From Desulfobacteraceae bacterium (GTDB lineage: Bacteria; Desulfobacterota; Desulfobacteria; Desulfobacterales; Desulfobacteraceae): a stretch of DNA of 11,765 bases. The position numbers were made by a program, and so were the translations under genes. This document shows positions 129 through 11,765 of the stretch, in pieces. The notes beneath the pieces are model-generated. The model made no database searches. It was given only the letters and a program-made list of their open reading frames with translations, and had not been told where the DNA came from. The stretch covers positions 1 to 11,765 of the forward strand of contig WFQS01000699.1 in the NCBI GenBank assembly GCA_015486915.1. Reading direction: 5' to 3'. How positions within the stretch are numbered: position 1 is the stretch's first letter; every line of letters begins with the position of its first letter.

Positions 129-1502
129 TTATTTTCTTCCAGTTCCCTTACTTATTGCTGACTCCGGTATCGCCAGAAGGGTCTGCAGTGCAATGAGGTT
201 TTCCCTCTGCATCTGATCCAGGTTAATTTCTTCTTTACGTTTTTTAATCCAGGTCGTTTCCATATTTAAAAAAGTTAAATCATCAATATCTCCACGCTGA
301 TACGCCGCCCGTCCACTGATAACCAGTTTTTTCAGGTCTGGCAGATATTTTGCAAGTTGCTGTCGCTGTATTTCTATAATGCCGTGCAAACGAATTAATT
401 TATCAACTTCCATGGAGGTATGATCAAGGCGTGCTTGATATTCCCTGCGCAATTGTTCGCGTGTTGCCCTTTCCACAGCAATTGCTCCCCTGTTCGCCGA
501 GAAAAATGGTAAATTCAAGCCTATGTTGAATCCATTTGTATAGATACTTCCGGTATCACGTGCATGACTGATACCGATACTGATCGATGGAAACTGCGAT
601 AAAATAGCTGCTCTTACCCTGGCTTCCTGGCTGTTATAGCCGGCCTGAAGGGCGAGAAGGTCAGGCCTCCGTTTGGGCAGATTTTTTATTTCCATACGCA
701 GTTTTTCAGAATCAATCAGTACTGGTATGGGGGACAAACGGATTTCCAGTAAGTTTCCAGGAGCCAGGCCGAGTAATAGATTCAATGCATAACCGGTATT
801 ATTGCAGGTTTGTTTCAATTGCGTTATCTGGCTTGATATATCGAGAAGAGCGGTTAAATCCGTTCCTGTAACATCAAAAGTGACATCACCGCTGAGCAGT
901 GCCCTGTGAGAATTCTGGTAGCGTTGAAGATAAAGGGCTTTCATCTTATGTAACAGGTTAATCTGCCGGCGTTGGTCATATAGACGTACAGCAAGTGAAC
1001 GTGCCTTCTGGCTCACCTGCCACTCCTGCCATAAAAGTTGCAGCCTGGTTTTATTAAGTGCCTGTTCTTTGATGCTGATTCGAGCTTTGCGGTTAATTAA
1101 CGGAAGAATATCGTAACTAAGGGCCATACTCAGGGCATTGACAGTACCAATGGTGTTCACCACAGGATGATCAAGGTTTGCTGACAACTGAGGATCTGGA
1201 AACATACGGGCTGAATACAATTGTGCTTTTGCCACTCCAAGCCGCTTGCGCTGTGCTTTGAGATCCGGATTATTGCGTACTGCAAGAGCTGATATTTCAG
1301 CTGGACTCAGCCCTTTCGCCGGATCAATACCATGCCATGCCCCGGGTGATAACAGCCCATGGATCTCAGGTACAAGATCGATGCTCCGGGGCAGAGGCTC
1401 AGGCTGATATTTCGCACATCCGCCAAGCAGAAAAATAATAGCGGTCACAATTATTAATTGATACGGATATTGATACAGTTTGTTCCATATTGTTTGTTTC
1501 AT
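129..1502 (-). CDS. TolC-family outer-membrane efflux lipoprotein (OMF)
   Basis: Predicted outer-membrane channel component of an efflux or export machine, of the OEP/TolC family (CzcC/CusC-like). From the chosen start the protein is 457 aa, usual for the family. It begins with a lipoprotein signal: a basic N-terminus, a hydrophobic stretch at about residues 15-26, then a lipobox ending in LLGGC with the acylated Cys at 29. Ala at +2 suits outer-membrane sorting. The mature part has the family pattern of an early helix with AQLYSARMFPDPQLSAN and paired long amphipathic helices rich in R, Q, A and L. The ATG at 1502 is preferred because it gives a compact signal peptide and leaves 14 bp after the kinase stop. 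An in-frame ATG at 1532 would overlap the kinase by 17 bp, and more distant starts up to 1628 lie well inside it. It is the last gene of the block. It probably serves the ABC permease encoded upstream, but no adaptor protein is seen, so this pairing is inference. Confidence 0.88.
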   Translation of the reverse strand: MKQTIWNKLYQYPYQLIIVTAIIFLLGGCAKYQPEPLPRSIDLVPEIHGLLSPGAWHGIDPAKGLSPAEISALAVRNNPDLKAQRKRLGVAKAQLYSARMFPDPQLSANLDHPVVNTIGTVNALSMALSYDILPLINRKARISIKEQALNKTRLQLLWQEWQVSQKARSLAVRLYDQRRQINLLHKMKALYLQRYQNSHRALLSGDVTFDVTGTDLTALLDISSQITQLKQTCNNTGYALNLLLGLAPGNLLEIRLSPIPVLIDSEKLRMEIKNLPKRRPDLLALQAGYNSQEARVRAAILSQFPSISIGISHARDTGSIYTNGFNIGLNLPFFSANRGAIAVERATREQLRREYQARLDHTSMEVDKLIRLHGIIEIQRQQLAKYLPDLKKLVISGRAAYQRGDIDDLTFLNMETTWIKKRKEEINLDQMQRENLIALQTLLAIPESAISKGTGRK

Positions 1503-1515
1503 TTTTTTTAATACC

Positions 1516-3195
1516 TTAATCCAGTTTCCCATAATTATTTTTCTCATTTTCTTCGCAACCGGCATGGGGATATGCTGCAAAACAGATGGAAACAGTGGTT
1601 CCAATGTCAGGAGTACTTGTGATATCAATATTTCCTTTGTGCAGTCTTACAATTTCCCTGCATATGCTCAGACCGAGACCAAGACCTTTTACTTTCTTTG
1701 ATCTGGACGTGTCTGCCCTGTAAAAGCGGTCAAAAATTTTATCAATATCCTTAGGGGCGATGCCGATACCGGTATCTTTTATTTTTATTATGAAAAATTT
1801 ATCCTTTTTATCAATGGCAATATCTATTTCTCCTTTTGGAACATTATATTTGACAGCATTTTCAAGGATATTGATTATAAGTTCTGCAACAGAGGAAAAA
1901 TTTCCGGAAATAACGGGCCTGTAAGAGGGTGATGCCGGTAAATTGATTCGTATATCCTTAAGATCTGCAAAAGGTGTTATTGTTTTTACTGCCTGACTGA
2001 TAACCTCGTTTAAATTTACAGGTTCCATTTTAAGAATAGTTCCCTCATCACTTAAGCGTGTCAGTGCAAGAAGTTTTTCAACAATTTCTGACATCATCCC
2101 TGCTGCAGTTCCAATGGATGCAAGTGCGGTTTTATACTCCTTGCTGCTTCTTTCCTTACGCAATGTAATTTCACTCTGGCTTAAGATAACGGATAACGGC
2201 GTTCTGAGTTCATGGGATGCATCTCCTGCCAGCTGTTTCTGGCGCTTGAATGATTTTTCAAGCCGCTCAAAGGTCTGGTTAAAGGAAACAGCAAGTTCCT
2301 TGAGCTCTTCAGGCACGTTTTTATGGTCTATTCTTTCACAAAGATTTGATTCGGAAATTCCCTTTATGGTATCAGATATCTGTTTTATTGGAACAAGGGC
2401 ATTTTTTGCGATTAAAAATCCGCCTGCAGCTGATATCAATAAAATAGAAAGAATGGAAATCAAAAGGCTTGACTGAAAATTATCTATTATATCTTCCAGA
2501 TCGTCCGTATCAAGACCGCATTGGATAATCACACCTTCTCCATGTTTTTTCAGCACGGAACTTTTGGCTTCATGCCTGTTTACACCGCTGTCTCCTGTGT
2601 CTATTAAGTCTTTTGCATTTTCAAAGGGTATAAAACGAAAATTAACCAGCCTGACTGTCCTGTTATTGAGATCTATGGTATGATATTTTATTGATTTTCT
2701 ATCTGAAAAAAACGGGAGCTCACGGTTTTTCAGTGATTTTGACTTTTCTATGACACTTCCGTTAAACCTGCGTATCTCAAAGAAATTTTTTGATCTACCT
2801 GAATTATAGTCATGCATGATTTCATCTGAGAAAATAAGTTCTGTTTTATTGTTTTCATTTCTGACAAGTGTGGCCAGAGCCTTTGCACTGGACAGAAGCC
2901 CTGAATCAACTGAGTCATAGATAATATTATCAATGCTGATGTAAAGGCCTAACCCGAGAGCAGGTAATATCACAAATAGAATGGCAATATAAAAGACAAT
3001 GATCCTTGCTTTAATTGAAGAATTTATCTTTTTCATTAAATAAGACCGCCCGTTTTTAAAAAAAAGCAGGGTTGTAACGAAAAAGAAATCTTCCCGTAAA
3101 AAATAAAATGTTTCCCTTATTGTCCAGGGCAGATTTTTTATTGAATAAAATATTTTTTTAATTAAAGAGAATATCTTTATCCTTGGGAAAAACAT
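1516..3195 (-). CDS. Sensor histidine kinase, CusS/heavy-metal-sensor-like
   Basis: Membrane sensor kinase partnered with the response regulator just upstream, 3 bp away. From 3195 it has 559 aa. A hydrophobic/basic N-terminal extension (1-53) is followed by TM1 (about 64-87), a periplasmic sensor region (about 88-242), TM2 (about 243-263), HAMP (about 264-316), an H-box ASHELRTPL with phospho-accepting His328, an N-box with Asn446 (ILENAVKYN), G1 DTGIGI (474-479), an F-box FDRFYR and G2 GLGLGL (504-509). All catalytic motifs are intact. The architecture resembles CusS-type metal sensors, but the signal cannot be read from sequence. The ATG at 3195 has a good Shine-Dalgarno (AAAGGA) overlapping the regulator's stop, which suggests translational coupling. 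Family members usually start near the internal ATG at 3036 (Met54), so the true start is open between these two. The end overlaps an alternative start of the OMF gene. Confidence 0.92.
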   Translation of the reverse strand: MFFPRIKIFSLIKKIFYSIKNLPWTIRETFYFLREDFFFVTTLLFFKNGRSYLMKKINSSIKARIIVFYIAILFVILPALGLGLYISIDNIIYDSVDSGLLSSAKALATLVRNENNKTELIFSDEIMHDYNSGRSKNFFEIRRFNGSVIEKSKSLKNRELPFFSDRKSIKYHTIDLNNRTVRLVNFRFIPFENAKDLIDTGDSGVNRHEAKSSVLKKHGEGVIIQCGLDTDDLEDIIDNFQSSLLISILSILLISAAGGFLIAKNALVPIKQISDTIKGISESNLCERIDHKNVPEELKELAVSFNQTFERLEKSFKRQKQLAGDASHELRTPLSVILSQSEITLRKERSSKEYKTALASIGTAAGMMSEIVEKLLALTRLSDEGTILKMEPVNLNEVISQAVKTITPFADLKDIRINLPASPSYRPVISGNFSSVAELIINILENAVKYNVPKGEIDIAIDKKDKFFIIKIKDTGIGIAPKDIDKIFDRFYRADTSRSKKVKGLGLGLSICREIVRLHKGNIDITSTPDIGTTVSICFAAYPHAGCEENEKNNYGKLD

Positions 3196-3198
3196 TTT

Positions 3199-3867
3199 TT
3201 ATCCTTTTAATATATAGCCTGCTCCACGTACAGTATGGATCAGTTTGGTTTTATATTTTTTGTCTATTTTATTCCTGATGCGGTTGATAAAAACATCAAT
3301 GACATTGCTGTCAAGATCAAAATCATAATCATAAATGTGCTCCGATATATAGGTCCTGCTTAGAACTTTGTTTCTGTTCATGACAAAAAGCTCAAAAATT
3401 GCATATTCCCTTGCTGACAATGAAATCTGATCATTTTCTCTTTTTATTTCACAGGAAGCAAGATCAATGTACAGATCACCTACCTGAACAATGCTTGTCT
3501 TTACATCGGAATTACGGCGCAGCAATGCGCGAATACGGGCAAGTAGCTCCTCAAAGTGGAATGGTTTTGTGAGATAGTCATCGGCTCCGCTGTCTAATCC
3601 CGATATTTTATCATCCATTGCATCCTTTGCAGTAAGCATGAGAACAGGCGTTTTAACACCTTTTTTGCGGATTGTTTTCAATATGGTAATCCCGTCAACA
3701 ATTGGCAGCATAATATCTAAAATGATAATATCAGACGGCTCATTTTCCGCCATGAAAAGCCCGTCTTCTCCGTTGTATGCCACGTCTGCGGCATAGCCTT
3801 CCTCCATAAGTCCTTTTTTAAGAATGTCTGCAAGGGATTTTTCATCTTCAACAATCAATATCCTCAT
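3199..3867 (-). CDS. OmpR/CusR-family response regulator
   Basis: DNA-binding transcription regulator phosphorylated by the adjacent kinase. It has 222 aa. The receiver domain (about 1-115) has acidic-pocket residues E7/D8, phospho-acceptor D51 in IIILDIMLP, switch Thr79 and the invariant Lys101 in LTKPF. The winged-helix effector domain (about 128-222) ends in the family hallmark TVRGAGYILKG. The start at 3867 is chosen because AGGAGT lies 7-8 nt upstream. A longer in-frame ATG at 3897 would add ten residues not typical of the family. It lies 76 bp after the permease gene, the largest gap in the block, so an internal promoter is possible though no clear one is seen. It is the natural candidate to bind the shared inverted repeats at 8756-8775 and 9662-9681, which is inferred from co-localisation only. 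Confidence 0.94.
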   Translation of the reverse strand: MRILIVEDEKSLADILKKGLMEEGYAADVAYNGEDGLFMAENEPSDIIILDIMLPIVDGITILKTIRKKGVKTPVLMLTAKDAMDDKISGLDSGADDYLTKPFHFEELLARIRALLRRNSDVKTSIVQVGDLYIDLASCEIKRENDQISLSAREYAIFELFVMNRNKVLSRTYISEHIYDYDFDLDSNVIDVFINRIRNKIDKKYKTKLIHTVRGAGYILKG

Positions 3868-8845: not shown

Positions 8846-9616
8846 TTATAGATTATTCTTTATCTCTATTGTTTCAATATCCAGTCCGGTTGCTGTTAAG
8901 TATGCAACAAGTCCTGTAATTATTGTAAAAAAAACAATATTTATATGAGCAACGCCTATCCCCATACCGCCATCTTTCGGCATTTGGATCATCAGATCAC
9001 CAAGAGATGCCCCAACAGGTCTTGTTACAATAAATGCAATCCAGAATGCTGTAACTCCGTCGATAAATTTTACATAATAAAGACAGCCGGCCAGAAGAAA
9101 AACAGATGTGAATATAATTAACGAATTAAGATACCCGACATTTAAATATTCGGAGACACTGTCCCCAAGGCCTGTTCCCAATGCAAATGTTATTAAAACG
9201 ATACTCCAGTAAAAGATCTCTCTTTTTGTGACATTAATCGAGTGAATTGAAAGTGTGCCCTCTTTTTTATACCAGATATAAAAAACGCCCAGCATCATAA
9301 TTGTAAAAATAATATCAAGTGTAATTAAGCTCACTCCGAATTGATCCACCAGTAAATCGGTAATTAATGTACCTTCTATACTCATCATCACAACGAGAAA
9401 CCAGTAAGCAGGCGCAAAATATTTTTTCATTTTAAATTGCCAGATTACAGAGCCAATGGTTATTACACCCATCAAAATCGTTGTATTGAGTAACCCTATT
9501 CCTAAATCTCCATTGATAAAATCTGCCGCTGTTTCCCCCACAGTGGTGGATAAAATTTTTATAATCCAGAAAAAGACCGTTAAGCCCGCTACTCTGTTCA
9601 TAAGTTTTTGTGTCAT
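8846..9616 (-). CDS. Four-repeat DUF347/COG4705 integral membrane protein
   Basis: Polytopic inner-membrane protein of 256 aa with about eight TMs in four two-TM units. Each unit carries a short polar motif: STTVGETAAD (23-32), IEGTLITDLL (80-89), GTGLGDSVSE (147-156) and TRPVGASLGDLM (198-209). This fourfold G-x-x-(G)-D/E pattern matches the DUF347 repeat family (COG4705, uncharacterised membrane-anchored protein). The acidic residues inside the membrane would suit ion binding or transport, but function is unknown. The start at 9616 has GAGGGA about 6 nt upstream. It has its own promoter region holding operator B, and is separated from the PepSY gene by 85 bp. The shared operator connects it to the ABC/two-component block. 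Confidence 0.85.
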   Translation of the reverse strand: MTQKLMNRVAGLTVFFWIIKILSTTVGETAADFINGDLGIGLLNTTILMGVITIGSVIWQFKMKKYFAPAYWFLVVMMSIEGTLITDLLVDQFGVSLITLDIIFTIMMLGVFYIWYKKEGTLSIHSINVTKREIFYWSIVLITFALGTGLGDSVSEYLNVGYLNSLIIFTSVFLLAGCLYYVKFIDGVTAFWIAFIVTRPVGASLGDLMIQMPKDGGMGIGVAHINIVFFTIITGLVAYLTATGLDIETIEIKNNL

Positions 9617-9661
9617 AACATTTCCCTCATTTGTTTCCTTCCATCTATAATTTTTTCTGTC

Positions 9662-9681
9662 CAGTATGGTGACATATACTG
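9662..9681. promoter_or_regulatory. Candidate operator B (perfect inverted repeat CAGTAT-N8-ATACTG)
   Basis: Perfect 6-bp half-sites with an 8-bp spacer, 46-65 bp upstream of the DUF347 gene. It is nearly the same sequence as operator A at 8756-8775. A -10-like TATAGAT follows on the minus strand. A second inverted repeat GGTGA/TCACC (9668-9672 and 9683-9687) overlaps it with a different centre. The site lies between the PepSY stop and the DUF347 start, so it probably controls a promoter for the latter. Confidence 0.6.
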
Positions 9682-9701
9682 ATCACCGGCCTGTAATAAC
9701 T

Positions 9702-10103
9702 CTATTCATCTTTCTCATGGCTGTTATTATCGTTATCTTCACTGTTTTTATCTTCACTGTTCAACTCTTCTCCGTTTTGTTCTTCTCCGTTGATCCTTAG
9801 AATCCTGCCATCACCGGCATCAACTTTGACCTCCTCAGTCTGCCTGTCTAACTTTACAATTTTTACTCCATAGACAAGAAAACCATTCTCATTTTCCAGC
9901 TCCACCTTAACCACCTTGCCCGGAACCTGTTTCAAAGCAGCATCAATGGCTGAATTCATTGATATTTTTGCCATCTGCGTCAGCCCTGTTTCATTATTAA
10001 TATGAATACTGCCGGTCTGGCCTGCCTGATGTGCAATGGCCATTCCAGTGAAAAAAATAACAGCCGCCACAATAGAAAATGTAATAACACCTGAATGTTT
10101 CAT
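9702..10103 (-). CDS. Secreted PepSY-domain protein with acidic pentapeptide-repeat tail
   Basis: Small periplasmic protein of 133 aa. It has a signal peptide (1 to about 24, ending MAIA) and one PepSY domain (about 46-105): a helix ISMNSAIDAALKQVPGKVVK, then strands VELENENGFLVYGVKIV and EEVKVDAGDGRILRI, as is usual for the family. The C-terminus (105-133) is almost only N, E, D, S, G and K, built on a five-residue period. PepSY proteins are often found with two-component systems and membrane transporters. A role in modulating or buffering a periplasmic factor, or in metal binding by the acidic tail, is only a suggestion. The start at 10103 has GGAGAT about 8-9 nt upstream. A consensus -10 TATAAT lies about 90 bp upstream. 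Confidence 0.87.
   Translation of the reverse strand: MKHSGVITFSIVAAVIFFTGMAIAHQAGQTGSIHINNETGLTQMAKISMNSAIDAALKQVPGKVVKVELENENGFLVYGVKIVKLDRQTEEVKVDAGDGRILRINGEEQNGEELNSEDKNSEDNDNNSHEKDE
9732..9791 (-). repeat. Four 15-bp tandem units encoding an acidic pentapeptide repeat
   Basis: Codons 105-124 of the PepSY gene read N-GEEQ, N-GEEL, N-SEDK, N-SEDN, four units of 15 bp. At the DNA level two 13-bp stretches (9734-9746 and 9749-9761) and two 11-bp stretches (9766-9776 and 9781-9791) are identical at a 15-bp spacing. Change in copy number would keep the frame. Confidence 0.8.
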
Positions 10104-10513
10104 TTGTTGTATCTCCTTTTATGATTTAAAATGTGTAAGAATATTGAGTATTTTACATGATATTTCCAATCCCGTTTTCATACTACACACGCATTATACC
10201 CATGAAAGATTAAAGAAAGATGAATACAGCAATAAAAAATAAAATAAACGGAACATATTACGTTCTATTTCCAATAAAAAAATATACCCTGACACAATGC
10301 CAGGATAATTCAAAAAAAAGAATCGTATATGAACACAAATTCATCATCATGATGTCAGCTGCGGGGGATTCGTTTGTAAGTGAAGGGGCACCTTCTTTTC
10401 CTTGCATTTTTTATCTTCTAAAGATATGTTCTTTTAAAGACAAAAAATAATATGATCAGGAACACTATACTTTGGCTTCACGAAACATGCATCTTTTCCA
10501 AAGAAAAGAATAA
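10104..10513. other. Intergenic region between divergent units
   Basis: This gene-free stretch separates the minus-strand PepSY gene from the plus-strand nuclease gene. It holds the PepSY leader and -10 element, a weak TATACT near 10466-10471 on the plus strand, and a short hairpin TCTTTTC-CAAA-GAAAAGA (10492-10509) just before the ATG at 10514. An open frame at 10220-10450 lacks a good RBS and any recognisable domain. Composition becomes AT-rich, fitting a junction between host backbone and acquired DNA. Confidence 0.5.
10193..10198 (-). promoter_or_regulatory. Probable -10 element for the PepSY gene
   Basis: TATAAT on the minus strand matches the sigma-70 consensus exactly, about 90 nt before the PepSY start. 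No good -35 is visible at 16-18 bp. A degenerate copy of the operator motif (GAGTAT-N8-ATATTT, 9 of 12 half-site bases) lies downstream at 10146-10165, 43-62 bp before the gene. Confidence 0.4.
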
Positions 10514-10611
10514 ATGGATGACATATTAAAAAAATACAAACCGAGAAAAAGATACAATCTTTAAACGAAGAAGCAACAAAACAAAGTATTATACTGCCAA
10601 TTCTTCAATTA
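10514..10611 (+). pseudogene. Apparent N-terminus of the nuclease gene, out of frame by one base at an A7 run
   Basis: The ATG at 10514 opens MDDILKK and then reads into a stop (YKPRKRYNL, stop). The nuclease frame is open from 10522 and encodes IQTEKKIQSLNEEATKQ followed by SIILPILQLLEW, a typical lead-in for HsdR-N proteins, but has no ATG. The two join into a sensible N-terminus if the A run at 10528-10534 had eight A's or if the ribosome or polymerase slips by -1 on A-AAA-AAA. Either a one-base deletion, a sequencing error or a slippery site explains this. A non-ATG start such as ATT at 10525 is also possible. Confidence 0.5.
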
Positions 10612-11604
10612 TTGGAATGGCAGGTGTTTGATGCTGATGAAGTATCTCCTGAATTTTCAGTTGAAAACACACGTGTAGATTATGCTTTGCGTAATGGCTC
10701 TATTAATAAGGTCTTTATTGAAGTAAAAAGAATAAATGAAGACCTTGAGAAGCATCAAGAACAATTATTGACATATTCATTTAGACAAGGAGTAAATTTG
10801 TCTATACTTACAAATGGAATTTTATGGTGGTTTTATCTTCCTCTACAAGAAGGTAGTTGGGAGCAAAGAAAGTTTTATGCGGTTGATATGTATTCTCAAG
10901 ATTTTGAAAAAATAACGGAAGTGCTAAATGATTTTCTTGCTCGCGAAAAAGTATTTAATGGAAAAGCATTAGAAAATGCAAAAAGATTATATGGTAATAG
11001 GCAGAAGAAGGATATTATACGAAGAAATATACCAAAGGCTTGGAGAAAACTGCATATTGAAGGAGATGAACTTTTAATTGAACTGTTAGCCGAAACAACA
11101 GAAAAAGTATGTGGTTATAGACCTGAAGACAGCCAAGTTTCAGAGTTTTTATATTCTATCATAAACCAAGAGCAACCAAAATATGAAAAGAAAAAAGAAA
11201 AGAAGGGAGTAGAACAGATAAAAATTGAAACTAAAATATCTTCATCATCGAATAATGAATTGTACTCTTTAAACGATAATTTTACTTATAAAAAAATAAC
11301 GGGATTTGTTTTCTTGAGTAACAATATATCTGCAACATCTTGGAAACAATTACTGATAAAATTTGTAGAAAAGATTAATTCACTTCATCATAATGAGTTT
11401 GATACAATAACAAATGTTTCGGGAAAGAAAAGGCCTTATTTTACCAAAAATAATAACGAATTACGTTCTCCAAAGAAAATATCAAATAGTGCTTATTTTG
11501 TTGAGACAAATTTAAGTGCGAACAATATAGTTTCTATAGTAAAAGAAGTTTTGAGAACATTTAATTATGATGAAAATGATTTAGGAATAAAACTCAGCAA
11601 CTAA
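10612..11604 (+). CDS. Stand-alone HsdR-N-type nuclease-domain protein
   Basis: Likely PD-(D/E)xK nuclease-domain protein related to the N-terminal domain of type I restriction subunit R (HSDR_N/HSDR_N_2 families). The 330 codons start at a TTG, but the homologous part continues upstream (see 10514-10611), so this span is probably 5'-truncated. Visible catalytic pattern: Asp in NTRVDYAL (about residue 23), E-x-K in VFIEVKR (about 37-40), then Q-x-x-x-Y in HQEQLLTYS (about 48-56) and ILTNGILWWFYLP, all typical of this nuclease fold. No helicase motifs follow, so it is not a full HsdR. A KE-rich linker (about 196-212) leads to a C-terminal module (about 228-330) with SWKQLLIKFVEKIN, KKRPYF and AYFVETNLSANNIV. 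I have seen similar modules in accessory proteins but cannot name the family. It may act in phage defence. Base composition and A/T-ending codons differ strongly from the left neighbours, which suggests acquisition. Confidence 0.7.
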   Translation: MEWQVFDADEVSPEFSVENTRVDYALRNGSINKVFIEVKRINEDLEKHQEQLLTYSFRQGVNLSILTNGILWWFYLPLQEGSWEQRKFYAVDMYSQDFEKITEVLNDFLAREKVFNGKALENAKRLYGNRQKKDIIRRNIPKAWRKLHIEGDELLIELLAETTEKVCGYRPEDSQVSEFLYSIINQEQPKYEKKKEKKGVEQIKIETKISSSSNNELYSLNDNFTYKKITGFVFLSNNISATSWKQLLIKFVEKINSLHHNEFDTITNVSGKKRPYFTKNNNELRSPKKISNSAYFVETNLSANNIVSIVKEVLRTFNYDENDLGIKLSN

Positions 11605-11672
11605 CAAACGGTATAATGCATGGCTTGCCGCAGGCGCAACACAGCCACGCACCATACCGCAGGCCGTTATGG
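11599..11672. other. attC-like integron recombination site
   Basis: A roughly 74-bp imperfect palindrome begins inside the end of the nuclease gene. The core AACTAAC (11599-11605, 6 of 7 with RYYYAAC) contains the TAA stop, and GTTATGG (11666-11672, 5 of 7 with GTTRRRY) ends it. Between them, 11610-11625 pairs with 11643-11658 at 13 of 16 positions. The three exceptions are A·C on the plus strand and thus G·T on the bottom strand, the strand that integron integrases recombine. The loop holds GCC-GCA-GGC. There is no T tract, so an intrinsic terminator is less likely. Gene stop plus attC is the layout of an integron cassette. No integrase or second attC is in the window. Confidence 0.55.
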
Positions 11673-11705: not shown

Positions 11706-11765
11706 CAGATATTATTTGGATATTTAATAAAATAAATATACTTTCGTATTCAGATATTATATGGA
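11706..11765. repeat. Direct repeat CAGATATTAT(T/A)TGGA, 45 bp apart, at window edge
   Basis: Copies at 11706-11720 and 11751-11765 match at 14 of 15 bases. The second runs into the window end, so the true length and number of copies cannot be seen. The region 11673-11765 is very AT-rich and shows no gene. Confidence 0.45.

Follow-up and report, generated by a model that had tools for sequence, protein, structure and literature searches.

The window analysed here, the whole stretch of 11,765 nucleotides from Desulfobacteraceae contig WFQS01000699.1, ends on its right with an AT-rich nuclease gene whose stop codon is embedded in a long imperfect inverted repeat. To the left of the nuclease, the opposite strand encodes PepSY, DUF347 and PsbP-like proteins, an FtsX-type permease and an outer-membrane efflux protein; ABC ATPase genes and those of a two-component system were also picked out by eye on this side. 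The ABC permease of the window is 100% identical to one from another contig; of the relatives listed under an organism name, the nearest is 60% identical (Geopsychrobacter). The DUF347 protein matches 3 of 395 Smithella-phylum genomes at E 1e-60, with 48–49% identity. The nuclease open reading frame spans positions 10522–11604 of the forward strand, with TTG at 10612 as its first common start codon and TAA at 11602–11604 as its stop, and its GC content is 0.29–0.31, compared with 0.32–0.49 further left in the window. An upstream ATG at 10514 lies in a frame that differs from that of the nuclease body, and the two frames meet at a run of seven adenines at 10528–10534 (feature 10514–10534, forward strand); relatives of the nuclease begin with MN-LK-FIKKIQTEKK. 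As read from the sequence, this frame break could represent a sequencing error, slippage or a damaged 5′ end.

Pfam identifies an HSDR_N domain (25.6 bits) and a SeqA C-terminal domain (33.3 bits) in the nuclease reading frame, both above cut-off. Residues D53 and E67-V-K69 (numbering of the translated positions 10522–11601) are invariant in the nuclease alignment and would fit a PD-(D/E)xK nuclease. With the alignment profile, solved SeqA chains were matched to the C-terminal region (best E 0.0019), and Foldseek comparison of this domain with SeqA returned E values of 0.02–0.3. Confidence is low for the N-terminal portion of the predicted structure (mean pLDDT 62.1, pTM 0.38), and the model was used only for the SeqA-like C-terminal domain, where the blocks that begin at residue 251 have pLDDT 83–97. 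Among the residues that contact hemimethylated GATC in SeqA, only some are kept in the alignment of the nuclease with SeqA. The likely role of the nuclease is defence against foreign DNA or phage; PADLOC returned no match. A restriction-type nuclease is ordinary cargo for an integron cassette, since, in an excerpt of a survey of archaeal cassettes (PMC9668308), phage resistance by DNA methylation or restriction accounts for 8.3% of those cassette proteins whose function could be predicted.

The inverted repeat occupies positions 11599–11672 of the forward strand and is ordered as R″, spacer, arm, loop, arm, spacer and R′. The R″-like box AACTAAC (11599–11605) encloses the stop codon of the nuclease, so that a single gene ends at a co-oriented attC-type site. 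It is followed by an unpaired left spacer AAA of 3 nt (11606–11608; sequence and arm alignment) and by the 17-nt left, L″-side arm CGGTATAATGCATGGCT (11609–11625), in which neither the fold nor the arm alignment places an extra, extrahelical base. A terminal loop or variable terminal structure of 17 nt (11626–11642), partly self-paired in the fold, separates this arm from the 17-nt right, L′-side arm AGCCACGCACCATACCG (11643–11659). The unpaired right spacer CAGGCC of 6 nt (11660–11665) leads to the R′-like box GTTATGG (11666–11672), delimited by both the palindrome finder and the site scorer, in which cleavage presumably falls between the G and TT. The arms are Watson–Crick paired at 14 of 17 positions, and all three exceptions are an A facing a C on the top strand, which become G·T pairs on the bottom strand. 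Together, the two R boxes agree with the RYYYAAC/GTTRRRY consensus at 11 of 14 positions, each box being off consensus. The distance from R″ to the first arm pair is 5 nt in a class 1 site (L092) and 0–5 nt across the reference sites by the same alignment; in the DNA minimum-energy fold of the window site, the spacer shrinks, leaving 3 nt bulged out on one side. The palindrome is real, and the original prediction, made from the letters of the window, described it well: an AT-rich nuclease gene with a long imperfect palindrome with AAC/GTT ends at its stop, mismatches that turn into G·T on the bottom strand only, and pairing at 13 of 16 arm positions, which agrees with our count for a slightly shorter arm.

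To place the site among attC sites, we used a scorer whose training set was 18 sites close to integron integrases (20 sites minus two near-duplicates from L100, with orientation set by hand from the AACAA side). The scorer evaluates ten positions at each end together with arm complementarity, allows gaps and has no term for extrahelical bases. The window site scores 44.8, within the leave-one-out range of the 18 integrase-adjacent sites (34.5–52.0, median 41.9). Reversed, it scores 22.4 and is therefore attC-like only in the orientation of the nuclease gene. Dinucleotide shuffling of the entire window, repeated 2000 times, never reached 44.8 (maximum 38.3), and positions 11599–11672 are the top attC-like match of the window for both the simple palindrome finder and the trained scorer. 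Across 51 loci that carry a relative of the nuclease (648,531 bases, both strands), scores of at least 38 occur at only four loci (L019, L020, L026 and L035), where they mark attC arrays around the nuclease relative.

Covariance models, home-made from integrase-adjacent attC sites, gave a different outcome. R1 was built from 11 sites; R2 from 47 R1 matches, one of them a wrong-strand site (L106, 1401–1459); and R3 from 17 sites on the bottom strand, its input alignment A6 being the 26-row alignment A5 minus seven misaligned rows and two rows gapped in the R box. Alignments A2 and A5 themselves were left out of model building because MAFFT had misplaced their R boxes. The check by covariance model that the original prediction had proposed came out negative with these models: R1 did not match the window site, R2 gave 6.6 bits (E 7.1) and R3 a partial match of 5.8 bits (E 7.1), neither of them significant. 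R2 looks specific; in nine genomes it reported 2–31 sites in six and none in three, a biased rate, because the genomes had been drawn from the 51 loci (36 of 51 listed) mostly for attC-like DNA after the nuclease stop. Its sensitivity, like that of R3, is incomplete, as both models overlook the two L026 sites that adjoin the nuclease cassette.

Folding as single-stranded DNA bore out the bottom-strand preference foreseen for the site: the bottom strand reaches −17.9 kcal/mol and the top strand −12.7 kcal/mol, a difference of 5.2 in favour of the bottom strand. In a reference set of 48 attC sites (36 R1 matches, with 11 of 47 excluded, plus 12 from nuclease loci), 40 fold more stably as the bottom strand; the strands differ by a median of 0.9, and a single site has a difference above 5.2. 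By arm alignment, the left arm of the window site holds no extra base, against at least one in 48 of 48 reference sites, a figure that is partly circular because 36 of the 48 were selected with models containing extrahelical columns (19 of these 36 were first found without them). In place of extrahelical bases, the stem has the three bottom-strand G·T pairs. The attC sites of integrons carry two extrahelical bases on one side, as stated in an excerpt of PMC3053210. Passages of a mutational study of the Vibrio site VCR (PMC2727003) report that deleting these bases lowers attC × attI recombination 6.2-fold and raises use of the top strand about 50-fold, that attC × attC excision is abolished when both sites lack them, and that, once they are deleted, the spacer by itself can impose strand choice.

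Other parts of an integron were sought within the window. No integrase was recognised among its 25 open reading frames (by eye, with Pfam on seven stretches and NCBIfam on five), no attI was recognised to the left of the nuclease, and no second attC-like site was detected, including in the 93 bases between the palindrome and the end of the contig at 11765; the further copies and nearby intI that were to be looked for thus did not appear in the window. The original prediction had noted no GTTRRRY boundary at 10104–10513, and this holds for 10104–10520; nor does a TTRRRY occur within 60 nt upstream of the ATG (10514), a length in which one arises by chance with a probability of about 0.33. The left edge of a cassette is therefore not seen. 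A candidate edge at 10471–10477 (TTTGGCT) was rejected, as it does not contain TTRRRY. At the extreme end of the contig, positions 11706–11765 hold an imperfect direct repeat, CAGATATTATTTGGA and CAGATATTATATGGA, with its copies 45 nt apart.

Given a gene that ends at an attC-like site, we were curious to know where its relatives reside. A protein search returned 1257 relatives at E 0.001, among which P0001, P0002 and P0004–P0010 are 83–94% identical to the nuclease of the window. A single-sequence search found no relative in genome contigs or viral contigs; a search with alignment A1 yielded the 51 loci, all from genome contigs, and again no relative in viral ones. An attC site follows the stop of the nuclease relative in four of the 51 loci, from a Desulfobacteraceae (L019), a Smithella (L020), the bin BMS3Abin15 (L026) and a WOR-3 (L035). 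Among 395 genomes of the Smithella phylum, 14 carry a nuclease relative at E 1e-40, and attC lies beside it in three of the 14 loci (L124, which is the Smithella locus again, L125 and L133), a less biased estimate of this association. Most relatives are therefore without an adjoining attC. In all, six other genomes place an attC at the stop of the nuclease relative or no more than 24 bases past it: the gap from stop to R″ is 13 bases in L125, 15 in L026, 18 in L019, 19 in L020 and 24 in L133, and in L035 the arrangement is that of the window, with the stop TAA embedded in its R″ box, GTATAAC. The relatives in L019, L020 and L133 are complete cassettes, because attC flanks them on both sides, and the R′ box begins 31–36 bases before the ATG in L019, L020, L026 and L133. 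In L133, six R2 attC sites fall within 3.65 kb (971–3455). Among the loci, those with the relatives closest to the nuclease of the window, L001 (66% identity) and L002 (65%), have no attC after the stop, and R2 detected no site anywhere in the corresponding genomes (G006 and G007).

Integrase genes were detected in some of these genomes. IntI above the NCBIfam cut-off is present in two of the nine genomes examined, those of L019 and L028, and an integron integrase above the curated cut-off in 51 of 148 Smithella-phylum genomes. Genome G004 of BMS3Abin15 (L057) holds 14 R2 attC sites and integrase matches only below the IntI cut-off, in two pieces, near one of which attC-like palindromes lie. 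Two weaker attC-like sites that follow the nuclease stop, in L005 (Thermotogae; score 36.2) and L028 (19.1), were left uncounted. In the Thermotogae metagenome-assembled genome, which has no R2 attC, a tyrosine recombinase gene with internal stop codons (8956–9849) directly precedes the nuclease gene (9962–11044), and the attC-like palindrome directly follows it. In a Nitrospirae metagenome-assembled genome with 11 R2 attC sites, the sequence after the nuclease (L017, 8942–9010) reads GTATAACAAACGCACAGGCGTTAAG, possibly a shortened attC remnant.

Taken together, these data make it likely that the nuclease is an integron-derived gene cassette and that positions 11599–11672 are its attC-type end, either working like an attC or descended from one; the site is best read as an attC-derived cassette end that is atypical or decayed. 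Anatomy, non-randomness, orientation and the stronger bottom-strand fold are properties of the site itself, and relatives of the nuclease are cassettes elsewhere. The proposal of a nuclease cassette with its attC thus stands in part: in its favour are the R boxes at the stop, the orientation, the bottom-strand bias, the marked AT-richness of the gene and, above all, the relatives beside attC in six genomes, and it is weakened by the negative covariance models, the missing extrahelical bases, left edge, intI and second site, and by the closest genome-locus relatives (L001 and L002), like most relatives, being without attC. The site cannot be filed as a canonical attC because a defining feature, the extrahelical bases, was looked for and is absent.

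A plausible history would begin with an integron integrase that once circularised the nuclease cassette and inserted it via the folded bottom strand, cutting between the G and TT of R′. Later, or as a rule in this lineage, the extrahelical bases read by the integrase would have disappeared from the site; the left edge of the cassette would have been lost as well, and no integrase would be left within reach. By analogy with the published deletions of extrahelical bases, such a site may integrate at attI at a reduced rate and hardly be excised by attC × attC recombination. The window site then probably integrates poorly and can hardly be excised, so that the nuclease would probably now be a fixed resident gene, a captured cassette stuck in place.

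Compatible with this best explanation, a longer cassette array may begin in the window and be cut off at the contig end, which we regard as possible, if short of probable. The contig stops 93 bases past the site, 11765 being also the length of the one contig listed for the protein of the window itself (P0003), and similar attC sites complicate assembly according to the IntegronFinder 2.0 authors, in an excerpt of their paper (PMC9024848); on this account, the contig breaks off because repeated attC sites disrupt assembly. The last 93 bases hold no further site, however, and no intI or attI was recognised on the left, where such an array would be expected to start.

An attC-derived, atypical or decayed end has also to be weighed against a natural attC variant that works without extrahelical bases and is still active, read by an integrase of the host. 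Strand choice in such a variant would rest on the three G·T pairs of the bottom strand, which are A·C in the top strand, together with the asymmetric spacer of 3 and 6 nt, in keeping with the large bottom-strand stability bias, the intact R boxes that match the reference profile, and the capacity of a spacer alone to impose strand choice reported in passages of PMC2727003. We consider this explanation unlikely: no reference site (0 of 48) does without extra bases, the left cassette edge is missing, the site stands alone, and attC × attC recombination is abolished when both sites lack extrahelical bases, as the same passages describe. That the site might represent a whole natural class of attC without extrahelical bases, with G·T versus A·C setting the strand and mobilising a SeqA-like nuclease, is more speculative still and very unlikely. 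If true, a matching integrase would need to read the hairpin in a way unlike IntI1 or VchIntIA, and covariance models of ordinary sites would overlook such cassettes.

Searches for the palindrome outside integrons bear on whether the site is an attC at all. Rfam gave no match over the palindrome at E up to 10, and a terminator reading was rejected, there being no terminator-like match at the site. Only partial matches were found in plasmids (one record, 37% covered, E 0.07) and phages (two records, 25% covered, E 0.9). Taken from the left side of the site, a pattern of 23 bases running from R″ into the arm had no match in viral contigs; with up to three mismatches it occurred in two of the 395 genomes, each time in a coding stretch with three mismatches, so that this sample, which is not known to include the host, gave no sign of a dispersed repeat. 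An unrelated long inverted repeat, whether a repeat element or a bottom-strand RNA hairpin with AAC/GTT ends at the stop by chance, would account for the negative covariance models and for every stem exception being G·U in a bottom-strand RNA, but it is improbable given these searches and would reduce correctly oriented R boxes at the stop of a gene from a cassette-borne family to coincidence.

The attC-derived cassette end can be set beside known systems. Like integron cassettes with attC (those of the Smithella-phylum integrons, or the class 1 attC of plasmid CP020529), the window has an RYYYAAC...GTTRRRY-type repeat at the stop of the gene, a bottom strand that folds better, a stop in R″ as in L035 and a gene family found beside attC in six genomes; it differs in having no extrahelical bases, off-consensus R boxes, no left edge, no integrase and a single site. 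It shares an attC-type site without intI with CALIN or single-attC elements, the IntegronFinder class, and differs from them in giving no significant match to the home-made models and in its single site, whereas IntegronFinder 2.0 requires two by default. An experimental counterpart is mut13-VCR, which, in the passages of PMC2727003 that describe it, likewise keeps R boxes and spacer without extrahelical bases; mut13-VCR is a laboratory mutant of a Vibrio site, whereas the window site is natural, with G·T pairs and another spacer. In a literature search outside which most subscription journals lay, we found no report of an atypical or degenerate attC with a SeqA-type nuclease in an integron. 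As a decayed cassette end, the site would offer a snapshot of an integron-borne, probably defensive nuclease turning into a fixed gene, of a kind that model-based searches can miss. Were the site active, extrahelical bases would not be required in nature, and cassette counts would be underestimates. Independent of the status of the site, HSDR_N family nucleases adjoin attC in at least six genomes, those with titles being a Desulfobacteraceae, a Smithella, a WOR-3 and the bin BMS3Abin15.

The nuclease family also varies at its C-terminal end. Nucleases titled 'predicted type IV restriction endonuclease' (for example P0016) share the HSDR_N domain with the invariant D53 and E67-V-K69, and the window protein differs from them by its C-terminal SeqA-like domain. 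No SeqA domain was matched at E 0.001 in the relatives of L019, L020, L026, L028 and L035. Where the window protein has its SeqA-like domain, the nuclease part of L035 carries a weak DUF4357 match (below cut-off), which suggests, from domain matches, that HSDR_N nucleases may have swappable DNA-reading ends, SeqA-like in one and DUF4357 in the other.
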